From NCBI GenBank assembly GCA_030831885.1, contig JAURKF010000074.1:1-8089 (forward strand): a DNA stretch of 8,089 bases, given 5' to 3'. This document shows positions 1-8,089 of this stretch, in pieces (position 1 is the stretch's first letter; each line of letters opens with the position of its first letter). The notes under the pieces were generated by a model. It searched no databases, was not told the origin of the DNA, and worked only from the letters and a program-made list of their open reading frames with translations. Made by a program: the position numbers and the translations under genes. Origin of the DNA: Flavobacteriales bacterium. GTDB taxonomy: Bacteria; Bacteroidota; Bacteroidia; Flavobacteriales; UA16.

Positions 1-115
1 AGGCAAGTGCTAAATCGCGTTGCGAACTATGCGGCTTCGTTGGGACAATTTCAAGTTTGCCCTTTCTACCTGAAGAATGATAATCCAACGCTTCTTTCTT
101 ACGAATCTGACTCAT
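1..115 (-). CDS. maeB: NADP-dependent malic enzyme, N-terminal 38 codons (partial at left edge)
   Basis: Malic enzyme decarboxylates malate to pyruvate in the cytoplasm, making NADPH or NADH. The minus-strand reading from the ATG at 115 begins MSQIRKKEALDYHSSGRKGK and continues with the block EIVPTKPHSSQRDLALA. It matches the start of MaeB-type malic enzymes from memory (in E. coli the block reads ALDFHE, then GKIQVSPTKPLATQRDLALAYSPGVA). The gene leaves the window at base 1, so the catalytic NAD(P)-binding domain and the usual C-terminal phosphotransacetylase-like domain cannot be seen. No alternative start is possible upstream: the frame meets TAA within about 40 bases and holds no ATG or GTG. 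The start is preceded by a T-run and GGT with no Shine-Dalgarno. The upstream minus-strand gene ends 62 bases away, with a terminator hairpin in between. The family is secure from this short stretch; the cofactor and full domain layout are inferred. Confidence 0.88.
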   Translation of the reverse strand, partial: MSQIRKKEALDYHSSGRKGKLEIVPTKPHSSQRDLALA

Positions 116-118
116 ACC

Positions 119-149
119 AAAAAAATAGGGGACGAAGATAGTCGTCCCC
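119..149 (-). terminator. Intrinsic terminator after the 178-900 gene, abutting the maeB start
   Basis: A perfect 8-bp inverted repeat (GGGGACGA at 128-135, TCGTCCCC at 142-149) encloses a 6-base loop. Read on the minus strand, the GC-rich stem is followed by TA and seven T's (125-119), the standard Rho-independent layout. It has no T-run on the plus side, so it acts on minus-strand transcripts, those coming from the 178-900 gene. Its T-run ends only three bases before the malic enzyme ATG, so it may also lie in that gene's leader. Confidence 0.85.
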
Positions 150-177
150 CAGCTTTACATGTGGAATACAGTGTTGG

Positions 178-900
178 TTACTTACTCACCACCATTCGTT
201 GAATGCCGACTGTGCGGCCATTCTCGTTCAGTTTACATGTGTATATGCCATTTGCCATCTCGGCGGCATTAACTAAAACTATTCCCCGCGCCGAGGTAAG
301 GTTATGATTGGCCACGAGAGTTCCCGTGGCGCTGTAGATCAAAAGTTCAGCTTTTGTTGGTTGAGTCACGAATTGGTAACTTATACCAGAAAGGCTGTTG
401 GCTGGATTGCCGAGAATCTCAAGTTGAGCTTTATTCTCGAATTCTTCTACGCCAATAATGCATGCCTGATCAACACAAAAGTTTACATCGTAGCAAAGTT
501 GGTTTGATGGGTCAGCAGCGTCAAACCAACAGAAACGGGCAATACTCTGTCCCGCGTTACCATTGTGCCTGTACTTACAATAGAAGGAGAAGGAAGTATC
601 ACCATCCGCAACTGATACAATTTCAGTAGATAGCTCATTATTCGTTGCCCAAGGACCACAAATTTCTCCCCAACAGAACTGATGCTCAGCCCCGGTTACG
701 TTTTGAATAATCTCTCTTCTGCAGCGGATGTCGCGTGAAGAACCTGAAATATTAATAACATCCCAGTGAGCACTGATTATTTCAGTGGTATTGGAAGATG
801 TTCCCAATACAGTATTGACCTCGTTGTGAAACTCTATGAATTGGGAGAATCCTTGATTGCAAAGCATTAACAGACAATAGGAGAATAAAAGATATTTCAT
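178..900 (-). CDS. Secreted protein with C-terminal T9SS type A sorting domain, Cys-rich middle domain
   Basis: A 240-residue secreted protein of unknown function. Residues 1-20 form a signal peptide (hydrophobic stretch YLLFSYCLLMLC, cleavage likely after FSQ or before it). Residues 21-150 form a beta-rich domain with eight cysteines (60, 76, 81, 108, 124, 136, 142, 147) including FCWGEICGPW and ARFCWFD. This pattern recurs in small Bacteroidota T9SS cargo proteins, whose role is not established. Residues 160-240 are a Por secretion tail (T9SS type A sorting domain): LLIYSATGTLV, then MANGIYTCKL, ending in VGIQRMVVSK. The usual PNP motif reads GNPAN here. The frame is open further up to 1011, but the ATG at 900 is chosen because it directly precedes the signal peptide and lies 17 bases downstream of a good -7 box. 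A terminator follows the stop. The protein is expected to cross the outer membrane and be anchored or released at the surface. Confidence 0.85.
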   Translation of the reverse strand: MKYLLFSYCLLMLCNQGFSQFIEFHNEVNTVLGTSSNTTEIISAHWDVINISGSSRDIRCRREIIQNVTGAEHQFCWGEICGPWATNNELSTEIVSVADGDTSFSFYCKYRHNGNAGQSIARFCWFDAADPSNQLCYDVNFCVDQACIIGVEEFENKAQLEILGNPANSLSGISYQFVTQPTKAELLIYSATGTLVANHNLTSARGIVLVNAAEMANGIYTCKLNENGRTVGIQRMVVSK

Positions 901-907
901 AATTGGA

Positions 908-923
908 ACGTTTGTACAAATGT
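908..923. promoter_or_regulatory. Palindrome overlapping the minus-strand promoter, possible operator
   Basis: TTTGTACAAA at 911-920 is a perfect 10-bp palindrome. Adding two further complementary pairs (908/923 and 909/922, with one mismatch at 910/921) gives an imperfect 16-bp dyad. It overlaps the -7 box and the expected transcription start, where a repressor would bind. A dyad of this length can occur by chance in AT-rich DNA, so this is only a candidate. Confidence 0.25.
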
Positions 924-924
924 A
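917..924 (-). promoter_or_regulatory. Bacteroidota-type -7 promoter box for the 178-900 gene
   Basis: The minus strand reads TACATTTG, an exact match to the Bacteroidota -7 consensus TAnnTTTG. It lies 16 bases upstream of the ATG at 900, which would put transcription start near 910 and give a very short leader. No TTG-type -33 box is seen at the expected distance; a T10 tract lies about 24 bases further upstream. Assignment rests on the -7 match and its position. Confidence 0.45.
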
Positions 925-1047
925 ATTGGCTATGGCATTGATTCTTTTAAAAAAAAAAGGTGCTCCTTGTTTTTTAATCAATTCTGTTGGATTCAAAATC
1001 AAAGTGTACACGCTTGACGCTTGATTCTTAAATTCGGCCCATCGTTC

Positions 1048-2526
1048 ATGAAAAAAATTCTTCTAATACTGACCTTATTTTCTTCATTGTGTTCCCCAGC
1101 ACAATACACTCCAGGTTCTCTTGCTCCCGACTTTAATGTGCAAGATATCGAGGGTAACACAAGGAGTCTATATAGCCAACTCGACTCAGGGAAAACCGTG
1201 ATATTGCATTGTTTTGCTGCGTGGGATAGCTATGCTTGGGAATACTATCAGCAACAAACCTTGGAGACGTTTGCTTCTTTATATGGCTCTAATGGCAGTG
1301 GCAACGCAGAGGTTTGGAGGGTGGAATGTGAAACTCAGAATTCATTGAGTCAATTGCAGGGGCCAGCTTTGAGCAGTGGCAACGTTGCTTTTGATACGCA
1401 AGGAGACTGGCTAACTCAATCGACCTTGCCTGTTATTGATGATTCAACCCTTTCAGTTCAATTGGCATTGCCTTATCTGCCGTTATTGTTGGTAATCTGT
1501 CCGGATAGAATTGTTCGATTCGCTGATCAGTTGTCGCTTGGAAATTTGACCAATCTTGTATTCCAAACTTCCTGTCCTCCGGTAGCTGAGGGTTTCGATC
1601 CTGCGCTTATTTCTGCTATAACATCTCGAGAATGTGGTAGCAATTTCATAGACATACAATTGGTGATTAAAAATCTTGGCACGGATACTATTTCAAATGC
1701 GTCCATTGTGTTAAGTGGAGCAATTAATAATCAGTCTATTTTATGGGAAGGTCAGCTTGCTTCATACGGTTCAGATACAATTCAAATCACAGGCCTAGAA
1801 GTATTATCTGACACGGACATTCGCATTGCCATTGAAGATGACAATGTCAATTCTTCAAACGACTCATTGAGTGTCGGATCGGATGTTGGTTTTTCAACTC
1901 AACTCGTGAAACTCGAGCTCGCATTGGATGCTTATCCGGAAGAAATATCCTGGGAAATTCGAAATGAATCAGACTCGGTTATTTACTCCGGGGGTGGATA
2001 TGAAGTAGATTACCAATACATCAGCAATGTGTTTCAATTGCCCGCTTCGGGTTGCTATCAGCTTTTTATAAATGATACCCAAGGCGATGGTTTGCATGGA
2101 AGTCAGTATGGCGGTTTCGACGGATTCTGTAAACTTTATAGCATGACCGATTCCACCACTATCGAGGAAGAGATGTTTTTCTACGATGGCTCTTTCGGTT
2201 TCACCACGATTGCAAATACTCCGGCCTTTCTGCAATACTCCTTTGATGCAGGCTCTCCGCTATGGGTTGATGAAATCCCATTACCTAAATGGGTTCTTTA
2301 TCCTAATCCTGCCGACAATATGTTGAACATAAACATTACATCTGGTAATGGACCAATTGAAATCTCGATGTTGAATGCTGCAGGTGAATTAGTTTTTAGA
2401 CAACAAATCAAAGAATATACAACAGCCATTAGAGTTGACGTTTCCTCGTTACCTTGCGGCATGTACATGTTTACTTTGAAGTCAACGGACAATTATTTAG
2501 GAACTCGGTTGATTATTAATCAGTGA
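1048..2526 (+). CDS. T9SS-sorted multidomain protein with redox-dead thioredoxin-like domain
   Basis: A 492-residue secreted protein. Residues 1-18 are a signal peptide ending SPA before Gln19. Residues about 24-175 are a redoxin/TlpA-like domain (LAPDFNVQDIEGNTRSLYS, then KTVILHCFAAW), but the active site WCxxC is replaced by W59-D60-S61-Y62-A63, so both catalytic cysteines are gone. Pro145 in YLPLLLVICPD fits the cis-proline position, so the fold is probably kept. Residues about 185-285 look like a CARDB/Ig-type domain (IDIQLVIKNLGTDTISNASI). Residues about 287-365 resemble a beta domain common in T9SS cargo (SWEIRNESDSVIYSGG, SGCYQLFINDTQGDG). Residues about 414-492 are a T9SS type A sorting domain (VLYPNPADNMLNI, ending TRLIINQ). 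The ATG at 1048 is chosen over TTG 1021 because it starts the signal peptide. The next gene follows after 47 bases. A binding or structural surface role is inferred; the partner is unknown. Confidence 0.85.
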   Translation: MKKILLILTLFSSLCSPAQYTPGSLAPDFNVQDIEGNTRSLYSQLDSGKTVILHCFAAWDSYAWEYYQQQTLETFASLYGSNGSGNAEVWRVECETQNSLSQLQGPALSSGNVAFDTQGDWLTQSTLPVIDDSTLSVQLALPYLPLLLVICPDRIVRFADQLSLGNLTNLVFQTSCPPVAEGFDPALISAITSRECGSNFIDIQLVIKNLGTDTISNASIVLSGAINNQSILWEGQLASYGSDTIQITGLEVLSDTDIRIAIEDDNVNSSNDSLSVGSDVGFSTQLVKLELALDAYPEEISWEIRNESDSVIYSGGGYEVDYQYISNVFQLPASGCYQLFINDTQGDGLHGSQYGGFDGFCKLYSMTDSTTIEEEMFFYDGSFGFTTIANTPAFLQYSFDAGSPLWVDEIPLPKWVLYPNPADNMLNINITSGNGPIEISMLNAAGELVFRQQIKEYTTAIRVDVSSLPCGMYMFTLKSTDNYLGTRLIINQ

Positions 2527-2573
2527 TGAACGGTACAATAGTTGAAAATGGCGCGGCCTTAAAAAAATAAACC

Positions 2574-3068
2574 ATGATAAAGTCTCTTTTTTTCTTATTA
2601 GCTGTTGGCTTATCTGTAACCATGTCAGCACAGGTAACCTCACTTCCGGAGGTAACGTTGAAGAATCTGGAAGGAAAGGATGTCAACACGGCACATCTTT
2701 CCAACGATGGTAAGCCAATACTCATTTGCTTTTGGGCTACTTGGTGTAGCCCGTGCAAAAAGGAGTTGAATACATACGCAGAATATTATGACGATTGGAA
2801 AGCGGAAACAGGAGTTAAGATTTATGCTGTAACTATTGATGATCAGCGCACAGTTACAAGTGTTAAGCCCTACGTAAACTCAGTTTCCTGGGAATACGAA
2901 ATTTTATCGGATGTAAATAAGACCTTTTCTCAAGCCATGGGGGTTAATTCACCGCCTCATACTTTTTTGCTGAATGGCAAAGGTGAAATTGTTTGGCAGC
3001 ATGTGGGCTATACTCCGGGCGACGAAGAAGAAGTTCATGAGCAATTATTAAAATTGGGACAACATTGA
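2574..3068 (+). CDS. TlpA-family thioredoxin-like periplasmic oxidoreductase
   Basis: A 164-residue exported thioredoxin-fold protein that should exchange disulfides on envelope proteins. Residues 1-19 form a signal peptide (LFFLLAVGLSVTMSA, then Gln20). The single domain covers residues 23-164: the entry LPEVTLKNLEGKDV is typical of TlpA/ResA/redoxin proteins, the active site is W57-C58-S59-P60-C61 inside FWATWCSPCKKE, and Pro128 in SPPHTFLL is the cis-proline. It has no lipobox, T9SS tail or extra domain, so it is expected to be soluble in the periplasm. The upstream context AAAAAAATAAACC fits the A-rich start regions of Bacteroidota. It lies 47 bases after the T9SS-sorted pseudo-thioredoxin and 31 bases before a DUF6029 barrel gene, so it probably shares their transcript. 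A reductant role is likely by analogy with TlpA/ResA. The specific substrate is unknown, with the Cys pair of the downstream barrel an obvious candidate. Confidence 0.9.
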   Translation: MIKSLFFLLAVGLSVTMSAQVTSLPEVTLKNLEGKDVNTAHLSNDGKPILICFWATWCSPCKKELNTYAEYYDDWKAETGVKIYAVTIDDQRTVTSVKPYVNSVSWEYEILSDVNKTFSQAMGVNSPPHTFLLNGKGEIVWQHVGYTPGDEEEVHEQLLKLGQH

Positions 3069-3099
3069 TGCTAATTCTTTTTATCGTGACCCTTACCTT

Positions 3100-4803
3100 A
3101 TGATGCGTATTTTATTTTTCATCCCGCTCTTATTGTTCTTTAATGATGCTTTATGTCAGGAGCAATCGGGAGATGCAGAAAGCAAAGGTCAGCTTCATAG
3201 TAATGTTCAGGTATTGTTTCAAAATTATAATCCCGATGACATTATTGGAGCGCAAGTGCCCGATGCAAAGGCTGCGCTGAATTCTTTCGGAAATTTTACA
3301 TATACGCATGGAAAGATTACTGCAGGAATTCGATTTGAATCGTATCAAAACGCTATTCTCGGGTTCCCGAATCGATTCAAAGGGTCTGGAATTGGAAGTC
3401 GATACGTTCGATATAATCAAGATAATTTCGATATTACAGTAGGTAACTTCTACGAACAATTTGGCAATGGACTTTGCTTTCGAACTTATTGGGAGCCTAA
3501 TTTGGGTATTGATAATGCAATGGATGGTGTGCGCATTATCTACAAGCCGATAAAAGGATTTGCGTTAAAGGCAGTTTACGGAAGACAGCGCTATGATTTC
3601 GATAGTCGCATTATTGATGGCGCCGGTATTGTTCGCGGCATGGATGCGGAATGCAATATCAATGATCTTATACCGCGTTGGTCTGAAAAATCTCTACGGG
3701 TCACAGTTGGTGGGAGTTTTATAAGTAAATACCAATCAGGAGAATCTTTCGAGCGTGATGAAGAAGTATTTCGATTGCCGAATAACGTCGGTGCAACCGC
3801 AGGTCGTCTCGGTATTGTTTACAAAAATTTTCAATTCAATGGTGAATACGTCACTAAGATTAATGACCCAAATGCAGACAATGGGTATATTTTTAAAAAG
3901 GGCGAAAGTATTCTAGCTAATCTGACCTATAGCACAAAGGGATTTGGAGCCACAGCGAGCGCAAAGTATGTCGACAATATGGCCTTTCGTAGTGATCGTG
4001 ATGCTCTTCTCTTTGATGTCCCAATTAATTATTTACCGGCTATTACCCGGCAGCATACTTATAACCTGGCAGCAACTCTATATCCATATGCAACCGTAAT
4101 TAATGGTGAAGTTGGCGTAAGTGGAGAGCTATTCTATATGTTCAAAAAGGAGAGCCTTCTTGGAGGAAAATATGGTACATATATTTCATTGAACGCTGCC
4201 GCTGTGAATAGCTTGGATACTTTGCATACAGGAGGTGTGAATCAGTTGGTGAATGGTTATGATGTCAATTCGTATGGTTTCGGAAAGACAAAATTTGTTC
4301 GTGATGTCAACGCCGAAATTCGAAAGAAAATCAATAGTAAGTGGAGCATGAATTTAGTGCATTATTACTTTGAGTTTAATACAAGCGTTACTCCGGTTAC
4401 CCAAGATTTTAAAGGACTTGTATATGCCAATGTTGACGTGTTGGATATGCAATACAAATTCAAACCGAAGCATTCGGTTAGAATGGAGTTACAATCATTA
4501 CTCACAGAACAGGATAAGGGCAACTGGGCTACTGCACTTGTTGAGTATGCCTTTTCGCCCAAGAATCAGCGATTTAGCAGTCGCAATTGGTCTTTTGCCA
4601 TCATGGATCAATACAACTATGGTAACGAAAATCGAGAAAAGAGGGTACATTATCTATATGGAAACATAGGATACAGCAAAGGTGCGACTCGGGTTATGAT
4701 TGGTTATGGAAAGCGACGTGCTGGAATTTTCTGTATAGGAGGTGTATGCCGCGCGGTACCCGCCTCCAATGGAATTGAAATAAATCTCACTTCAAGTTTT
4801 TAA
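3100..4803 (+). CDS. DUF6029-type outer-membrane beta-barrel protein
   Basis: A 567-residue predicted outer-membrane barrel. Residues 1-19 are a signal peptide ending ALC before Gln20; Leu at -1 rules out a normal lipobox. The rest is alternating hydrophobic/polar strands rich in Tyr, Phe and Gly (GNFTYTHGKITAGIRFES, FDITVGNFYEQFG, VRIIYKPIKGFALKAVYG), ending in a terminal Phe (INLTSSF) as in BAM-assembled barrels. I recognise the overall pattern as DUF6029, a Bacteroidota family without assigned function. Mature cysteines are C126, C185 and the close pair C545/C550 in GIFCIGGVCRAVPASNG, just before the last strand. The start has two adjacent ATGs (3100, 3103); either gives the same signal peptide. 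It sits between a TlpA-like thioredoxin gene and an Omp28-type lipoprotein gene that begins 2 bases after its stop, so the products probably work together. Channel or transport function is plausible but not shown; no ligand can be named. Confidence 0.82.
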   Translation: MMRILFFIPLLLFFNDALCQEQSGDAESKGQLHSNVQVLFQNYNPDDIIGAQVPDAKAALNSFGNFTYTHGKITAGIRFESYQNAILGFPNRFKGSGIGSRYVRYNQDNFDITVGNFYEQFGNGLCFRTYWEPNLGIDNAMDGVRIIYKPIKGFALKAVYGRQRYDFDSRIIDGAGIVRGMDAECNINDLIPRWSEKSLRVTVGGSFISKYQSGESFERDEEVFRLPNNVGATAGRLGIVYKNFQFNGEYVTKINDPNADNGYIFKKGESILANLTYSTKGFGATASAKYVDNMAFRSDRDALLFDVPINYLPAITRQHTYNLAATLYPYATVINGEVGVSGELFYMFKKESLLGGKYGTYISLNAAAVNSLDTLHTGGVNQLVNGYDVNSYGFGKTKFVRDVNAEIRKKINSKWSMNLVHYYFEFNTSVTPVTQDFKGLVYANVDVLDMQYKFKPKHSVRMELQSLLTEQDKGNWATALVEYAFSPKNQRFSSRNWSFAIMDQYNYGNENREKRVHYLYGNIGYSKGATRVMIGYGKRRAGIFCIGGVCRAVPASNGIEINLTSSF

Positions 4804-4805
4804 GA

Positions 4806-5675
4806 ATGAAAAGTGCAATCGCGCAACGGATATGGTTTGTTTTCGCAATGGCATTCGTGTTGAACGCGTGCGATGAAGTGGATCAACCCATCATTGAATA
4901 CGGGTCATATCGCATAGATTTATACGGACCTGCGCCTGCTTTTTCTCCTTTGGGAACACCGGTGCAAAAGGTATTGTTGGAAGATTTCACCGGCCACGAT
5001 TGTGGAAATTGTCCCAATGGCCATTTACGTGCTGCTGAACTGCTCCACACGTATGGCGATAGCCTAGCAGTTGTTGCAGTGCATGCCGGATCACTTGCAC
5101 AGCCATTGCCGCCGGAGTATCCCGATGATTGGACAACAACGGAGGGAGAATATTACTTGCTAACTCAGGTAGGGCAGGACATTATGCCTAAGGGTCGCAT
5201 AAATCGCCGACCCGGTGCTTCTACCATTTTTTCACCCTCGGCATGGGCTGCCCAAGTTTCGGAAGCAATCACGGAACAACCCTTGGTCAGTTTGCAAGTT
5301 AAGGCCGATCATCGCGCTGCCAACAGCCATTGGAACGTGCATGTTTTTTCTGAGTGGCTTCAAAATGCTAGTGGTAACTATAAATTGGTGTTGATGCTCA
5401 CCGAATCGGGAATAGTTGCGCCGCAGCTATTTTATGGCAATGATCCGGAGTATATCGAAGAATACCATCATGAACATATGCTCCGAGCTACAGGAACCGG
5501 AGCCACGGGCTTAACGGTGTTTACCAATCCTTCAGCAGGAACGAGTGAAGTCGAGAGTTATACTTTCGATTGGAACAATGCGTGGATTGCTGACAGCTGT
5601 GAGGTGATTGCTTTTTTGACTGATGGTGATAATGGTCGAGTTCTAAATGTTGCCAAAACAAAATTGGTTCAATGA
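4806..5675 (+). CDS. Omp28-related outer-membrane lipoprotein with thioredoxin-like CGNC site
   Basis: A 289-residue lipoprotein. The signal peptide ends in the lipobox L19-N20-A21-C22, and the next residues Asp23-Glu24 are acidic, a feature associated with surface export of lipoproteins in Bacteroidota. The Omp28 family is named after a Porphyromonas outer-membrane protein. Residues about 53-160 form a thioredoxin-like domain: VLLEDFTGHDCGNCPNGH carries C66-G67-N68-C69, AVVAVHAG follows as a core strand, and Pro128 in IMPKGRINRR sits at the cis-proline position. The rest is a beta domain with a conserved-looking histidine patch (YHHEHMLRATG, 220-230) and C265 near the end (CEVIAFLTDGDNGRVLNVAK). 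It begins 2 bases after the DUF6029 gene and overlaps the next gene by 4 bases (ATGA), so translation is probably coupled. The intact CxxC suggests redox activity, or perhaps metal binding, at the outer membrane; which one is inference. Confidence 0.88.
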   Translation: MKSAIAQRIWFVFAMAFVLNACDEVDQPIIEYGSYRIDLYGPAPAFSPLGTPVQKVLLEDFTGHDCGNCPNGHLRAAELLHTYGDSLAVVAVHAGSLAQPLPPEYPDDWTTTEGEYYLLTQVGQDIMPKGRINRRPGASTIFSPSAWAAQVSEAITEQPLVSLQVKADHRAANSHWNVHVFSEWLQNASGNYKLVLMLTESGIVAPQLFYGNDPEYIEEYHHEHMLRATGTGATGLTVFTNPSAGTSEVESYTFDWNNAWIADSCEVIAFLTDGDNGRVLNVAKTKLVQ

Positions 5676-6307
5676 CAAGGGTGCTATTGCTTTTAATTGC
5701 TTGCCTGTTCCAGGGAGTTTTATTTGCTCAGCAGGATGAAGCTTCTTCTGGTCGCAGTTTTAAAGGGGGCCTTCTACTAGGAGCAGTAACCTCGCAAATT
5801 AGTGGTGATGGGCTAGGAGGATGGGACAAATTCGGAATGACAGCAGGCGCATGGGTTCAGGTTCCTTTTTCAGAACGTGCTTCAGCCACAATGAGTATTA
5901 GATACATCAACAAGGGAAGCCGAACCAAACTGGACACAATAACATTCAATCGATTTGGCTATTACCTGAACTACATTGAAGTTCCTCTTTCTTTTTCATA
6001 TTCTCCTTCGAGAAAATATACTGATCAATTATTCATCAATTTTGGGCCTTATGCAGGATATCTGTTCAATCAGAAAATAATTTCGAATGGCTACGATTAT
6101 GAAGTGAATCCGCCATTTGAGCGTCTCGATATTGGTCTTGAACTTGGAGTTACTTTTTGGGTTACTCCGAAATTTGGAGCAAGTCTAGTTTCTTCCTCTT
6201 CGGTGTTGCCCACACGTCCGAATCCATCGCAAGTCAACCAATTTAGTTATTACGAAAAGGGCAATTACAACCAAACCTTGCAATTGGTTATTTTCAAAGG
6301 TTTTTAG
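5672..6307 (+). CDS. Small outer-membrane beta-barrel protein (PF13568 type)
   Basis: A 211-residue predicted barrel of about eight strands. Residues 1-19 are a signal peptide (VLLLLIACLFQGVLFA, then Gln20). Strand-like segments follow (FKGGLLLGAVTSQISG, MTAGAWVQVPF, ATMSIRYINKGS, QLFINFGPYAGYLF, DIGLELGVTFWVTPKFGASL). The segment YYLNYIEVPLSFSYSP is the signature I associate with the Bacteroidota outer-membrane beta-barrel family PF13568, and the chain ends on an aromatic residue (VIFKGF). The mature protein has no cysteine, unlike its neighbours. Its ATG overlaps the stop of the Omp28-type gene by four bases, so it is the last gene of the tightly packed group and likely translationally coupled. 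Function is unknown: these barrels are usually structural or partner subunits, and here it may pair with the lipoprotein or the DUF6029 barrel. The convergent minus-strand gene ends 6 bases away. Confidence 0.85.
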   Translation: MTRVLLLLIACLFQGVLFAQQDEASSGRSFKGGLLLGAVTSQISGDGLGGWDKFGMTAGAWVQVPFSERASATMSIRYINKGSRTKLDTITFNRFGYYLNYIEVPLSFSYSPSRKYTDQLFINFGPYAGYLFNQKIISNGYDYEVNPPFERLDIGLELGVTFWVTPKFGASLVSSSSVLPTRPNPSQVNQFSYYEKGNYNQTLQLVIFKGF

Positions 6308-6325
6308 AAAGCATTAGAGCTTTTT
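6308..6325 (+). terminator. Weak candidate terminator at the end of the envelope operon
   Basis: A 5-bp stem (AAAGC at 6308-6312, GCTTT at 6319-6323) with a 6-base loop runs into five T's (6321-6325). It directly follows the stop at 6307 and overlaps the end of the convergent gene. The stem is short and AT-rich, so termination here is uncertain. No other hairpin is seen between the two convergent genes. Confidence 0.3.
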
Positions 6326-8089
6326 AAAGTATTCGAATCGCATTGCTTCAACCAAGTTTTTTAATGCAGTGTATTCATTTTTCATACATGCATCAATCAT
6401 TTCAACTCCCTTTTCTACGCTCCTTCTGCAGTTCATAACTGCTGTTCGACTATTTGTTCCGTTCTCATATTCACTGATAGAATAAAATGCTGAATAGAGC
6501 TGACTGTTGAGGGTGTGCGAATCGTTTTGAATTCCTTTTTGGTTTTCTTTTCCGAAATAGTATTCTCGAATAGGATCAATTTTTTTCTGCAAGGAGTCGA
6601 TTCGTTCGTTCACTTTTTTCTTCGTGCTGTCGACAGCGTAGGTTAATGCATCCTTTAAAAGCGAAATTGATTTTTCTGCTGCGCGTATTTTCGAATAAGC
6701 ATTCTCAGCGGATTCAACCAGCGCTGAAGCTTCTTTGAGAAGTGATTCATAATCGGTGTGGTTCTCTTCTTTCCATAGCAGACCGGGTTGAACACCGATT
6801 GTTACGGTGGAGCTGTCTTTCTCTTGATTCAGAGTGTACACCACCTTGTAGGTTCCTGGTTTCACCTTCGGCCCATTGCCTTCCTCTTCTGAGTCTTTCT
6901 TCGGGTCTTCTTTAGATGGAAATCGGACACCCTTTGTTTCAAAATACCAATACACGACATTATAACCGGTATCCGGTTCATGCTTGAGCGTGCGCAGTGT
7001 ATCACCGGCAAGTGACAATACATGAATTGTCATTTTTTGCTCTTTGTTATTTTTGCTATCACTCCCTTTTTTGTCGACCTTTTTGTCTTTTTCCTCCTGT
7101 TTTTTTGGTGATGATTTTTTGCTTTCATCGATGCTGTTTTTCGTCTCCGATTTCTTTTCGGGAGTATGCCAAAAGCACAGGGCAGCCCGTTTGCTCTTGT
7201 TGGCGCCTGAGAAATAGGTATCGGCCGGGAAACGTTCGCCTGCGGGTTGCATAGTCGCGCTTATGCAGGCATCAGGTGATGGTAAGGCCACTAGTGCTTT
7301 TTCAAATTCTACTGCTCCAATGCGGGCATATGCTCTTAGTGGCGCGATATTATCCAAAATATATGCGGCCCTTCCGAATGTGCCGATAATCAAATCACTC
7401 TCGCGCGGGTGTATCTTCAAATCCTGCGTAGCAACATGCGGATAATTGTACGACCAACGAAGCCATTGCGATCCCTTGTTGAACGAAACGTACAGACCAT
7501 GCTCAGTGCCTAAGAAAACGAGAAGAGGCTCTTTACTATCCTGCACCACGCTCAAGCAATGTCCGTTTAATTCGGTGCCAATCGCTTTGTTATGCCAAGA
7601 CTTTCCATAATCAGCAGTGTAGAAAAGGTATGCATTTGAATCACCGTGGCGGTAATTATTTACAACGACCCATACTTCTCCGGCAGCAGCCCCCATGGTG
7701 ATTTGTGCTACCCAGGCTGCCTTCGGAAAGTCCTTTATGGATGGTGTCAAATTATTCCATGTCTTTCCGCCATCGCGCGTAAGTTGAACATTGCCATCAT
7801 CTGTGCCTACCCAAATTTCTCCTTTGTTGAATGGACTTGCAGTAATACAGAGTATGGTGCAGTGGTTTTCTGCATTGGTAACATCCGGCGTGAGTCCTCC
7901 GGTCTTATCTTGATTTTTCAGTTTGAGGGAATCATTCGTTGACAGATCGGGTGAAATGATTTCCCAACTTAAACCATGATCTTTTGAATAATGAACATAT
8001 TGAGATCCGAAGTAAATCGCTTCATTATTGAATGGGTCTTTACCAATAGCCGCATTCCAATTGAAACGGAGCTTTTTCCCATCCGGATG
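6314..8089 (-). CDS. BNR/Asp-box beta-propeller protein (VPS10/sortilin-like), C-terminal part, cut at right edge
   Basis: The frame is open from the window edge to a TAA at 6314-6316, giving 591 C-terminal residues. Four Asp-box repeats are visible: SKDHGLSW (35-42 of the visible part), TRDGGKTW (104-111), TADYGKSW (158-165) and the degenerate SFNKGSQW (202-209). The blocks IYFGSQYVHYS, GGLTPDVTNAENH, EIWVGTDDGNVQLTRDGG and DLIIGTFGRAAYILDN are typical of the ~1000-residue VPS10-like 'BNR glycosyl hydrolase' group common in Bacteroidota. After the propeller come a Lys/Glu/Ser-rich linker (311-352), an Ig/FlgD-like domain (353 to about 440; IHVLSLAGDTLRTL, KVKPGTYKVVYTL) and a helical, partly coiled-coil C-terminus. 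No T9SS tail is present. TTG 7750 looks like a start but lies inside an Asp-box blade (DGGKTWNNLTPS), so the real start is outside the window. Enzyme activity is unproven for this group; a binding or peptidase-associated role is also possible. Confidence 0.88.
   Translation of the reverse strand, partial: HPDGKKLRFNWNAAIGKDPFNNEAIYFGSQYVHYSKDHGLSWEIISPDLSTNDSLKLKNQDKTGGLTPDVTNAENHCTILCITASPFNKGEIWVGTDDGNVQLTRDGGKTWNNLTPSIKDFPKAAWVAQITMGAAAGEVWVVVNNYRHGDSNAYLFYTADYGKSWHNKAIGTELNGHCLSVVQDSKEPLLVFLGTEHGLYVSFNKGSQWLRWSYNYPHVATQDLKIHPRESDLIIGTFGRAAYILDNIAPLRAYARIGAVEFEKALVALPSPDACISATMQPAGERFPADTYFSGANKSKRAALCFWHTPEKKSETKNSIDESKKSSPKKQEEKDKKVDKKGSDSKNNKEQKMTIHVLSLAGDTLRTLKHEPDTGYNVVYWYFETKGVRFPSKEDPKKDSEEEGNGPKVKPGTYKVVYTLNQEKDSSTVTIGVQPGLLWKEENHTDYESLLKEASALVESAENAYSKIRAAEKSISLLKDALTYAVDSTKKKVNERIDSLQKKIDPIREYYFGKENQKGIQNDSHTLNSQLYSAFYSISEYENGTNSRTAVMNCRRSVEKGVEMIDACMKNEYTALKNLVEAMRFEYFKKL
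7034..7159 (-). other. Low-complexity Lys-rich linker inside the propeller protein
   Basis: Forty-two codons encode a highly charged segment made almost only of K, E, S, D, N and Q, with KK repeated many times (for example KKSSPKKQEEKDKKVDKKG). It separates the propeller from the Ig/FlgD-like domain. The plus strand is correspondingly T-rich here (many TTTTT tracts). It is likely a disordered spacer, and such tracts often vary in length between strains. Confidence 0.75.

Follow-up and report, generated by a model that had tools for sequence, protein, structure and literature searches.

Why should genes for two thioredoxin-fold proteins, one predicted to be soluble in the periplasm and the other a lipoprotein, flank a gene for an outer-membrane beta-barrel that carries a close pair of cysteines? 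This arrangement occurs in an 8,089-nt stretch of DNA from a Flavobacteriales bacterium (UA16; assembly GCA_030831885.1, contig JAURKF010000074.1, positions 1-8,089), which we refer to in its entirety as the window. An original prediction grouped genes for a TlpA-type thioredoxin, a DUF6029 barrel, an Omp28 lipoprotein and a small barrel into one unit, and proposed that the two redox proteins maintain or switch a disulfide in the DUF6029 barrel, which might thereby gate the transport or capture of a metal or thiol ligand. We have compared this neighbourhood with its counterparts across Bacteroidota, and observed that a core of TlpA, DUF6029 and a surface-type thioredoxin is conserved. Such conservation points to a thiol-redox system, as yet undescribed, extending to the cell surface. 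We consider it on balance probable that the set constitutes a conserved envelope thiol-exchange module of Bacteroidota bearing the type 9 secretion system (T9SS), in which TlpA acts from the inside and Omp28 from the outside on the Cys pair of the barrel.

The four adjacent genes are co-directional, the first three being separated by 31 and 2 bases and the last two overlapping by 4 (Table 1), and our examination of open reading frames (ORFs) and family profiles bore out this layout together with the predicted families, the WCSPC and CGNC motifs, the lipobox and the barrel Cys pair. The first protein matches AhpC-TSA and Redoxin (76.9 and 71.9 bits) and has WCxxC after a hydrophobic N-terminus, the signal peptide being judged by eye; it is thus TlpA/ResA-like, and scores below the cut-off of the ResA model NF002854 (80.3 vs 170 bits). 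The DUF6029 match covers the whole protein (PF19494, 557 bits over residues 9-567, cut-off 27). The lipoprotein matches Omp28 (PF11551, 85.3 bits vs a cut-off of 34.9) and falls just under the cut-off of NF033782, the Omp28 family outer membrane lipoprotein (148.7 vs 150 bits). The small barrel matches OMP_b-brl_2 (PF13568) with 53.5 bits.

The prediction depended on these families being neighbours in other genomes also, and throughout the phylum we found the core genes in the same genomes and near each other. Two samples were used. The close set comprises the best 80 of 189 relatives from a genome-contig scan; its loci have record titles and come mostly from metagenome-assembled genomes (MAGs) labelled Flavobacteriales or Bacteroidetes, whose neighbourhoods were scanned with profiles built from the window genes. 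The phylum set comprises 296 genomes spread across Bacteroidota, from which 80 regions were fetched, among them L160 with a doubtful DUF6029 match (28 bits). DUF6029 is present in 80 of the 296 genomes and Omp28 in 62; 58 have both, 22 have DUF6029 alone and 4 have Omp28 alone (Fisher p 4e-38, ignoring phylogeny). Of 81 DUF6029 places, 50 have a Pfam match to Omp28 no more than 10 kb away (on the same strand in 46), the nearest such gene being downstream on the same strand in 39, upstream on the same strand in 7 and upstream on the opposite strand in 4. TlpA was found within 2.7 kb of DUF6029 in 71/80 phylum loci and within 260 nt in 69/80, at least one further thioredoxin-like gene within 5 kb in 70/80, and TlpA together with such a gene in 64/80; the corresponding values for the close set were 72/80, 69/80, 77/80 and 70/80. 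Since the T9trx, T9a and Omp28 profiles contain T9SS tails and over-count, the further gene was recounted with CxxC required inside the matched stretch, which again gave 70/80 (phylum) and 77/80 (close). As a control, none of 153 long ORFs taken from these regions at distances from DUF6029 above 3 kb has TlpA within 260 nt, a lenient comparison because these regions contain few other TlpA genes. One MAG (CANGVZ01, isolate RE-15aug16-25) has two contigs with a DUF6029 locus on each (L013 and L021).

In the close set the recurrent genes are a T9SS thioredoxin-like gene, TlpA, DUF6029, Omp28 and the small barrel, and in many loci the secreted thioredoxin-like gene is relocated behind DUF6029 and doubled. 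The small barrel gave 62 ORF matches in the 80 close loci vs 1 in the 80 phylum loci, and the sortilin-like gene 36 profile matches vs 4. We assign TlpA, DUF6029 and a surface-type thioredoxin to the core because these stay close while order and strand vary and the other two genes mostly vanish; the small barrel, which had been counted as a member of the unit, is a lineage-specific accessory outside it.

The association between TlpA and the barrel extends to gene fusion. Among the TlpA proteins linked to DUF6029, 141/143 have WCxPC and 8/143 a lipobox-like pattern (lipoboxes were counted by regular expression), and the window protein matches Protein Data Bank (PDB) entry 2m72 over 139 residues (E 1e-39). 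In one genome (G295, locus L088), TlpA with its signal peptide is read through without a stop into the mature barrel, no second signal peptide being left, and Pfam finds both parts. A search of 117 genomes of the G295 family yielded a second fusion (G317, L163; 66.6% identical over 673 residues), and a sequencing error is therefore unlikely; TlpA and barrel thus form a single protein in two species. The fusion anchors TlpA where the barrel opens into the periplasm.

The barrel was modelled with 24 strands (pLDDT, predicted local distance difference test, 94.2). No solved relative was found by sequence at E up to 1. In alignment A2, which consists of the window protein and 96 of 147 candidates left by a redundancy filter (L160, L069 and frames of <480 or >625 amino acids, hence fusion L088, were excluded beforehand), C545 is conserved in 97/97 sequences and C550 in 96/97. 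More generally, C-x3..6-C near the C-terminus was present in 154/160 loci; the six remaining barrels are cut by contig ends (L016, L069, L073), broken at an ambiguous stretch (L106), represented by a truncated frame (L107) or doubtful (L160), so that no barrel with an intact C-terminus lacks the pair. The model puts the pair in its last extracellular hairpin, the side being assigned by strand parity, and the surface protein rather than TlpA is therefore its likely direct partner. Thus, the conserved neighbourhood, the TlpA fusions and the retained cysteines agree with the earlier proposal of two redox proteins acting on a barrel disulfide, and the predicted location of the pair argues against TlpA as its direct partner. 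In addition, residues 488-495 of the window barrel (KNQRFSSR, window 4561-4584), in a predicted periplasmic turn, are an insertion absent from the 20 other sequences of alignment A1 (21 of 120 listed homologues).

The Omp28 protein has a lipobox (LNAC) and CGNC, and its fold, with CxxC and a cis-proline position in a thioredoxin fold followed by a beta-sandwich, is of the HBP35 type, HBP35 being its closest solved fold. Published excerpts describe HBP35 (PG0616) as a T9SS-secreted surface thioredoxin of Porphyromonas gingivalis with shown activity. In alignment A3 (the window protein and 87 of 98 non-redundant Omp28 proteins) CxxC and the thioredoxin proline are invariant, and the 11 sequences dropped by hand also have CxxC. 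The window protein matched no T9SS sorting domain and has the lipobox instead; Omp28 is probably a surface-exposed thioredoxin-like protein. In eight loci (L140, L142, L143, L145-L147, L149, L156), a thioredoxin-fold lipoprotein, a T9SS-tailed one (mostly CPHC), or both, stand in the place of Omp28 beside TlpA-DUF6029, with T9SS-type tails such as QNYPNPFNPST. These separate genes led us to reject a split or broken Omp28 in L140-L158. The Omp28 N-terminus also weakly matches NF045500 of NCBIfam, Omp28-related selenoprotein (41.8 vs a cut-off of 200); the name implies catalogued selenocysteine relatives, which would fit a redox role. Two Omp28 frames with an internal stop were considered as selenoproteins and rejected: the TGA of L122, near the frame end, reads as a natural stop, and the L089 frame ends at TAA.

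From the observed gene association, fusions and conserved cysteines, together with the predicted folds and topology, we infer the exchange partners, direction of flow, membrane passage and output of the module as follows. The soluble TlpA-type thioredoxin would stand at the periplasmic side of the 24-strand barrel, and the Omp28 lipoprotein, or elsewhere a T9SS-secreted version, on the outer face. The surface thioredoxin would act on C545-C550 as a redox-active disulfide; reducing equivalents would be given or taken by TlpA, itself fed by CcdA or DsbD, and would pass through the barrel or around it. PorA-like proteins, which are small, T9SS-secreted and equipped with a Cys hairpin, would be likely further substrates. 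The hairpin might dip into the lumen, or a small thiol might shuttle; TlpA might also merely help assembly.

Several observations weigh against this module. With the pair outside and TlpA in the periplasm, direct exchange between TlpA and the barrel needs a hairpin that reaches into the lumen, or a carrier, and a conserved disulfide can be purely structural. The extracellular loops are more conserved than the periplasmic turns, yet not more than the strands (p 0.92). CcdA or DsbD is adjacent in just 2/160 loci, as counted by phmmer with the two proteins as only queries: in L125, one strand carries CcdA, TlpA, DUF6029 and Omp28 in unbroken succession, with ORF gaps of 8, 3 and 1 nt, and in L081 DsbD directly follows DUF6029. 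DsbD_TM is found in 60/60 genomes, 30 with and 30 without DUF6029; DsbD was therefore dropped as a discriminating partner, and its presence shows merely that an inner-membrane donor is available. In the phylum set, TlpA was not found in 9/80 loci, with the doubtful L160 among the exceptions, nor a further CxxC gene near the barrel in 10/80; the association statistics ignore phylogeny; and we found no biochemical or genetic data on these genes as a set.

The structural interpretation of the Cys pair leads to an alternative in which TlpA, and perhaps Omp28, just forms or corrects a disulfide in the barrel hairpin during biogenesis, with neither relay nor switching, as Dsb proteins do for LptD. 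The near-invariant C-x4-C pair encloses a Gly-Gly turn that joins two short predicted strands and would suit a structural cross-strand disulfide, and periplasmic TlpA could meet the barrel before insertion, with which its fusion at the periplasmic N-terminus is consistent. However, TlpA/ResA-type WCxPC proteins are mostly reductants, and an assembly aid leaves unexplained the surface thioredoxin (Omp28, HBP35 fold) and its thioredoxin-fold replacements in the eight loci of L140-L158. We regard this alternative as doubtful.

Beyond the original prediction, two T9SS-secreted proteins belong to the neighbourhood, and a connection between the gene set and type 9 secretion is possible. The thioredoxin-like gene at 1048-2526 is co-directional with TlpA and ends 47 bases upstream of it; in its product, D60 and A63 replace the CxxC cysteines found in 78/86 aligned sequences (window included), and C151, C176, C196 and C336, each present in 85 or 86 of 86, are kept. 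The PorA-like protein at 178-900 matches the sorting domain TIGR04183 (23.4 vs a cut-off of 23) and scores below the cut-off of Pfam PF18962 (23.5 vs 27). Its Cys pair, C76/C81 (FCWGEIC, codons 675-673 and 660-658), is present in 46/46 aligned relatives (alignments A4/A5, the window and 45 of 58 non-redundant proteins) and in the 13 others. The top match of its N-domain profile among PDB sequences is PorA-N of P. gingivalis (6kjk), a weak match (E 0.004) whose alignment covers the Cys pair. PorA-N-like ORFs lie within 3 kb of DUF6029 in 63/80 close and 27/80 phylum loci, an adjacency that is partly built in because 15/46 profile rows come from loci of the same sample. The hairpin FCWGEIC resembles FCIGGVC of the barrel (4732-4749), with C-x-G-x-x-C in common, as a shared partner or a convergent turn might account for.

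These neighbours raise the possibility that a PorA-like surface protein, whose redox state the module would control, reports to PorXY-SigP. PMC7712824 describes PorA as the relay of a signal from the surface to PorXY-SigP, and as a protein that gets to the surface in mutants of the T9SS. The PorA-N profile matched 50/296 genomes, of which 42 have DUF6029 (p 7e-21) and 30 have the two no more than 10 kb apart, a count that drew on 49 of 81 DUF6029 places (the genomes that could matter); SprA_N is present in 227/296 genomes and in 79/80 with DUF6029 (p 7e-10), the exception being G233, which is Porphyromonas-like by TlpA identity (66% to 2m72). L113 has a fusion in which an Omp28 thioredoxin that contains CxxC is followed by a PorA-N domain and a T9SS tail; other double matches of Omp28 and PorA-N were dismissed, the T9SS tail being shared with the Omp28 profile, and L113 alone was kept as a fusion. 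The same locus has, near this fusion and DUF6029, a 495-amino-acid ORF with three PorA-N repeats. Against a sensor of this kind, the PorA identity depends on the weak profile match, 53/80 phylum loci (including L123-L132 and L134-L160) have no PorA-N-like ORF within 3 kb, 8/50 PorA-N genomes lack DUF6029, and we saw nothing in support of the PorA cysteines mattering. We find the sensor rather doubtful; because it overlaps the thiol-exchange module, our estimates for the several readings do not sum to one. We are also doubtful of a longer chain, in which DUF6029 would be a thiol conduit from CcdA/DsbD, via TlpA docked or fused at its periplasmic mouth, to the barrel Cys pair, then to Omp28/HBP35-type thioredoxins and the redox state of PorA-like proteins, and outside redox would thus be reported to T9SS control.

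A role in polysaccharide secretion has been suggested for DUF6029 from its similarity to Wzi-like barrels in PMC9603273, the only open-licence paper naming this family that our searches returned. The barrel could be a porin or exporter for polysaccharide, hemin, metal or small thiols, its loops gated by the hairpin and the thioredoxins accessory, which we think unlikely given that the genes constantly found beside it encode thioredoxin folds. Simple co-location of envelope genes that have nothing to do with each other would draw on the gene order that related genomes share and on association tests that ignore phylogeny, and is very improbable, for the proximity outlasts changes of order and strand (Omp28 39/7/4), holds where the small barrel and the sortilin-like gene are largely lost (1 and 4 phylum matches), and extends to TlpA-barrel fusions.

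Table 1. Positions of genes and of the barrel Cys pair in the window
Feature	Position	Strand or orientation	Basis or remarks
PorA-like T9SS-secreted protein	178..900	-	divergent; TIGR04183 and PorA-N profile
T9SS-secreted thioredoxin-like protein (AhpC/TSA-like fold, sorting domain)	1048..2526	+	family profiles
TlpA/ResA-like soluble periplasmic thioredoxin	2574..3068	+	WCSPC; C58 2745-2747, C61 2754-2756
DUF6029 outer-membrane beta-barrel	3100..4803	+	PF19494; 24 predicted strands
Barrel Cys-pair codons, C545-IGGV-C550	4732..4749	+	last extracellular hairpin of barrel model
Omp28 lipoprotein	4806..5675	+	lipobox C22 then acidic residues; thioredoxin fold C66/C69, P128; then beta-sandwich
Small OMP_b-brl_2 barrel	5672..6307	+	PF13568; lineage-specific accessory
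Sortilin/BNR-repeat protein	6314-8089	convergent	open at window end

The thiol-exchange module would give DUF6029 and Omp28 a testable role, place TlpA physically on the barrel and offer a possible reason for the conserved Cys pair of PorA-like proteins; it could also bear on surface control of disulfides in T9SS-secreted proteins. To our knowledge, no thiol-redox pathway is known that uses a barrel to get onto the outer membrane of bacteria or to cross it. In the open-licence literature, subscription papers lying outside the scope of our search, we found no description of the gene set as a system and nothing apparently relevant on surface or outer-membrane thiol relays; a word search of PMC12578637, on BAM of Bacteroidota, for thioredoxin, disulfide, Omp28 and DUF gave none.

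Parallels with known systems can be drawn at several points. In P. gingivalis, PorA (PG2172/PGN_0123), whose N-domain comes closest, among solved structures, to the PorA-like protein of the window, and an Omp28 lipoprotein (PG2173) have consecutive locus tags, as given in part of PMC9722745. The available portions of the open-licence literature on PG2172-PG2175 contain no description of the four as a system and no functional link. We take PG2174 to be the DUF6029 barrel and PG2175 to be TlpA, 2m72 presumably being PG2175. The 00502 protein of Paraprevotella, which like the window protein belongs to the Omp28-related family, is reported in part of PMC9477747 to be a T9SS-dependent surface protein that recruits trypsin, and the word thioredoxin is absent from the main text of that paper. 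HBP35 is T9SS-secreted, whereas the window Omp28 is a lipoprotein with no T9SS tail, and the excerpts of the HBP35 literature do not mention a barrel partner. No sequence profile of the usher family, the mark of a chaperone-usher outer-membrane usher, matched the DUF6029 barrel. The MtrCAB porin-cytochrome conduits are alike in outline, with a periplasmic redox protein, a barrel and a surface redox lipoprotein, and 6r2q_B of the Mtr complex, which we take to be MtrB, ranks 21 among the Foldseek matches of the barrel, a list from which the absence of a family does not exclude it. These conduits carry haems via CxxCH, whereas the motifs of the window TlpA and Omp28 are CSPCK and CGNCP, with thiols in place of multihaem CxxCH partners, and the fold match is short of a demonstrated homology to MtrB. 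Known DsbD/CcdA - TlpA/ResA pathways end in the periplasm. They resemble the present genes in the TlpA-type WCxPC, with CcdA preceding TlpA-DUF6029-Omp28 in L125 and DsbD following DUF6029 in L081, but have no outer-membrane barrel or surface-type thioredoxin, both of which are added in the gene set described here.
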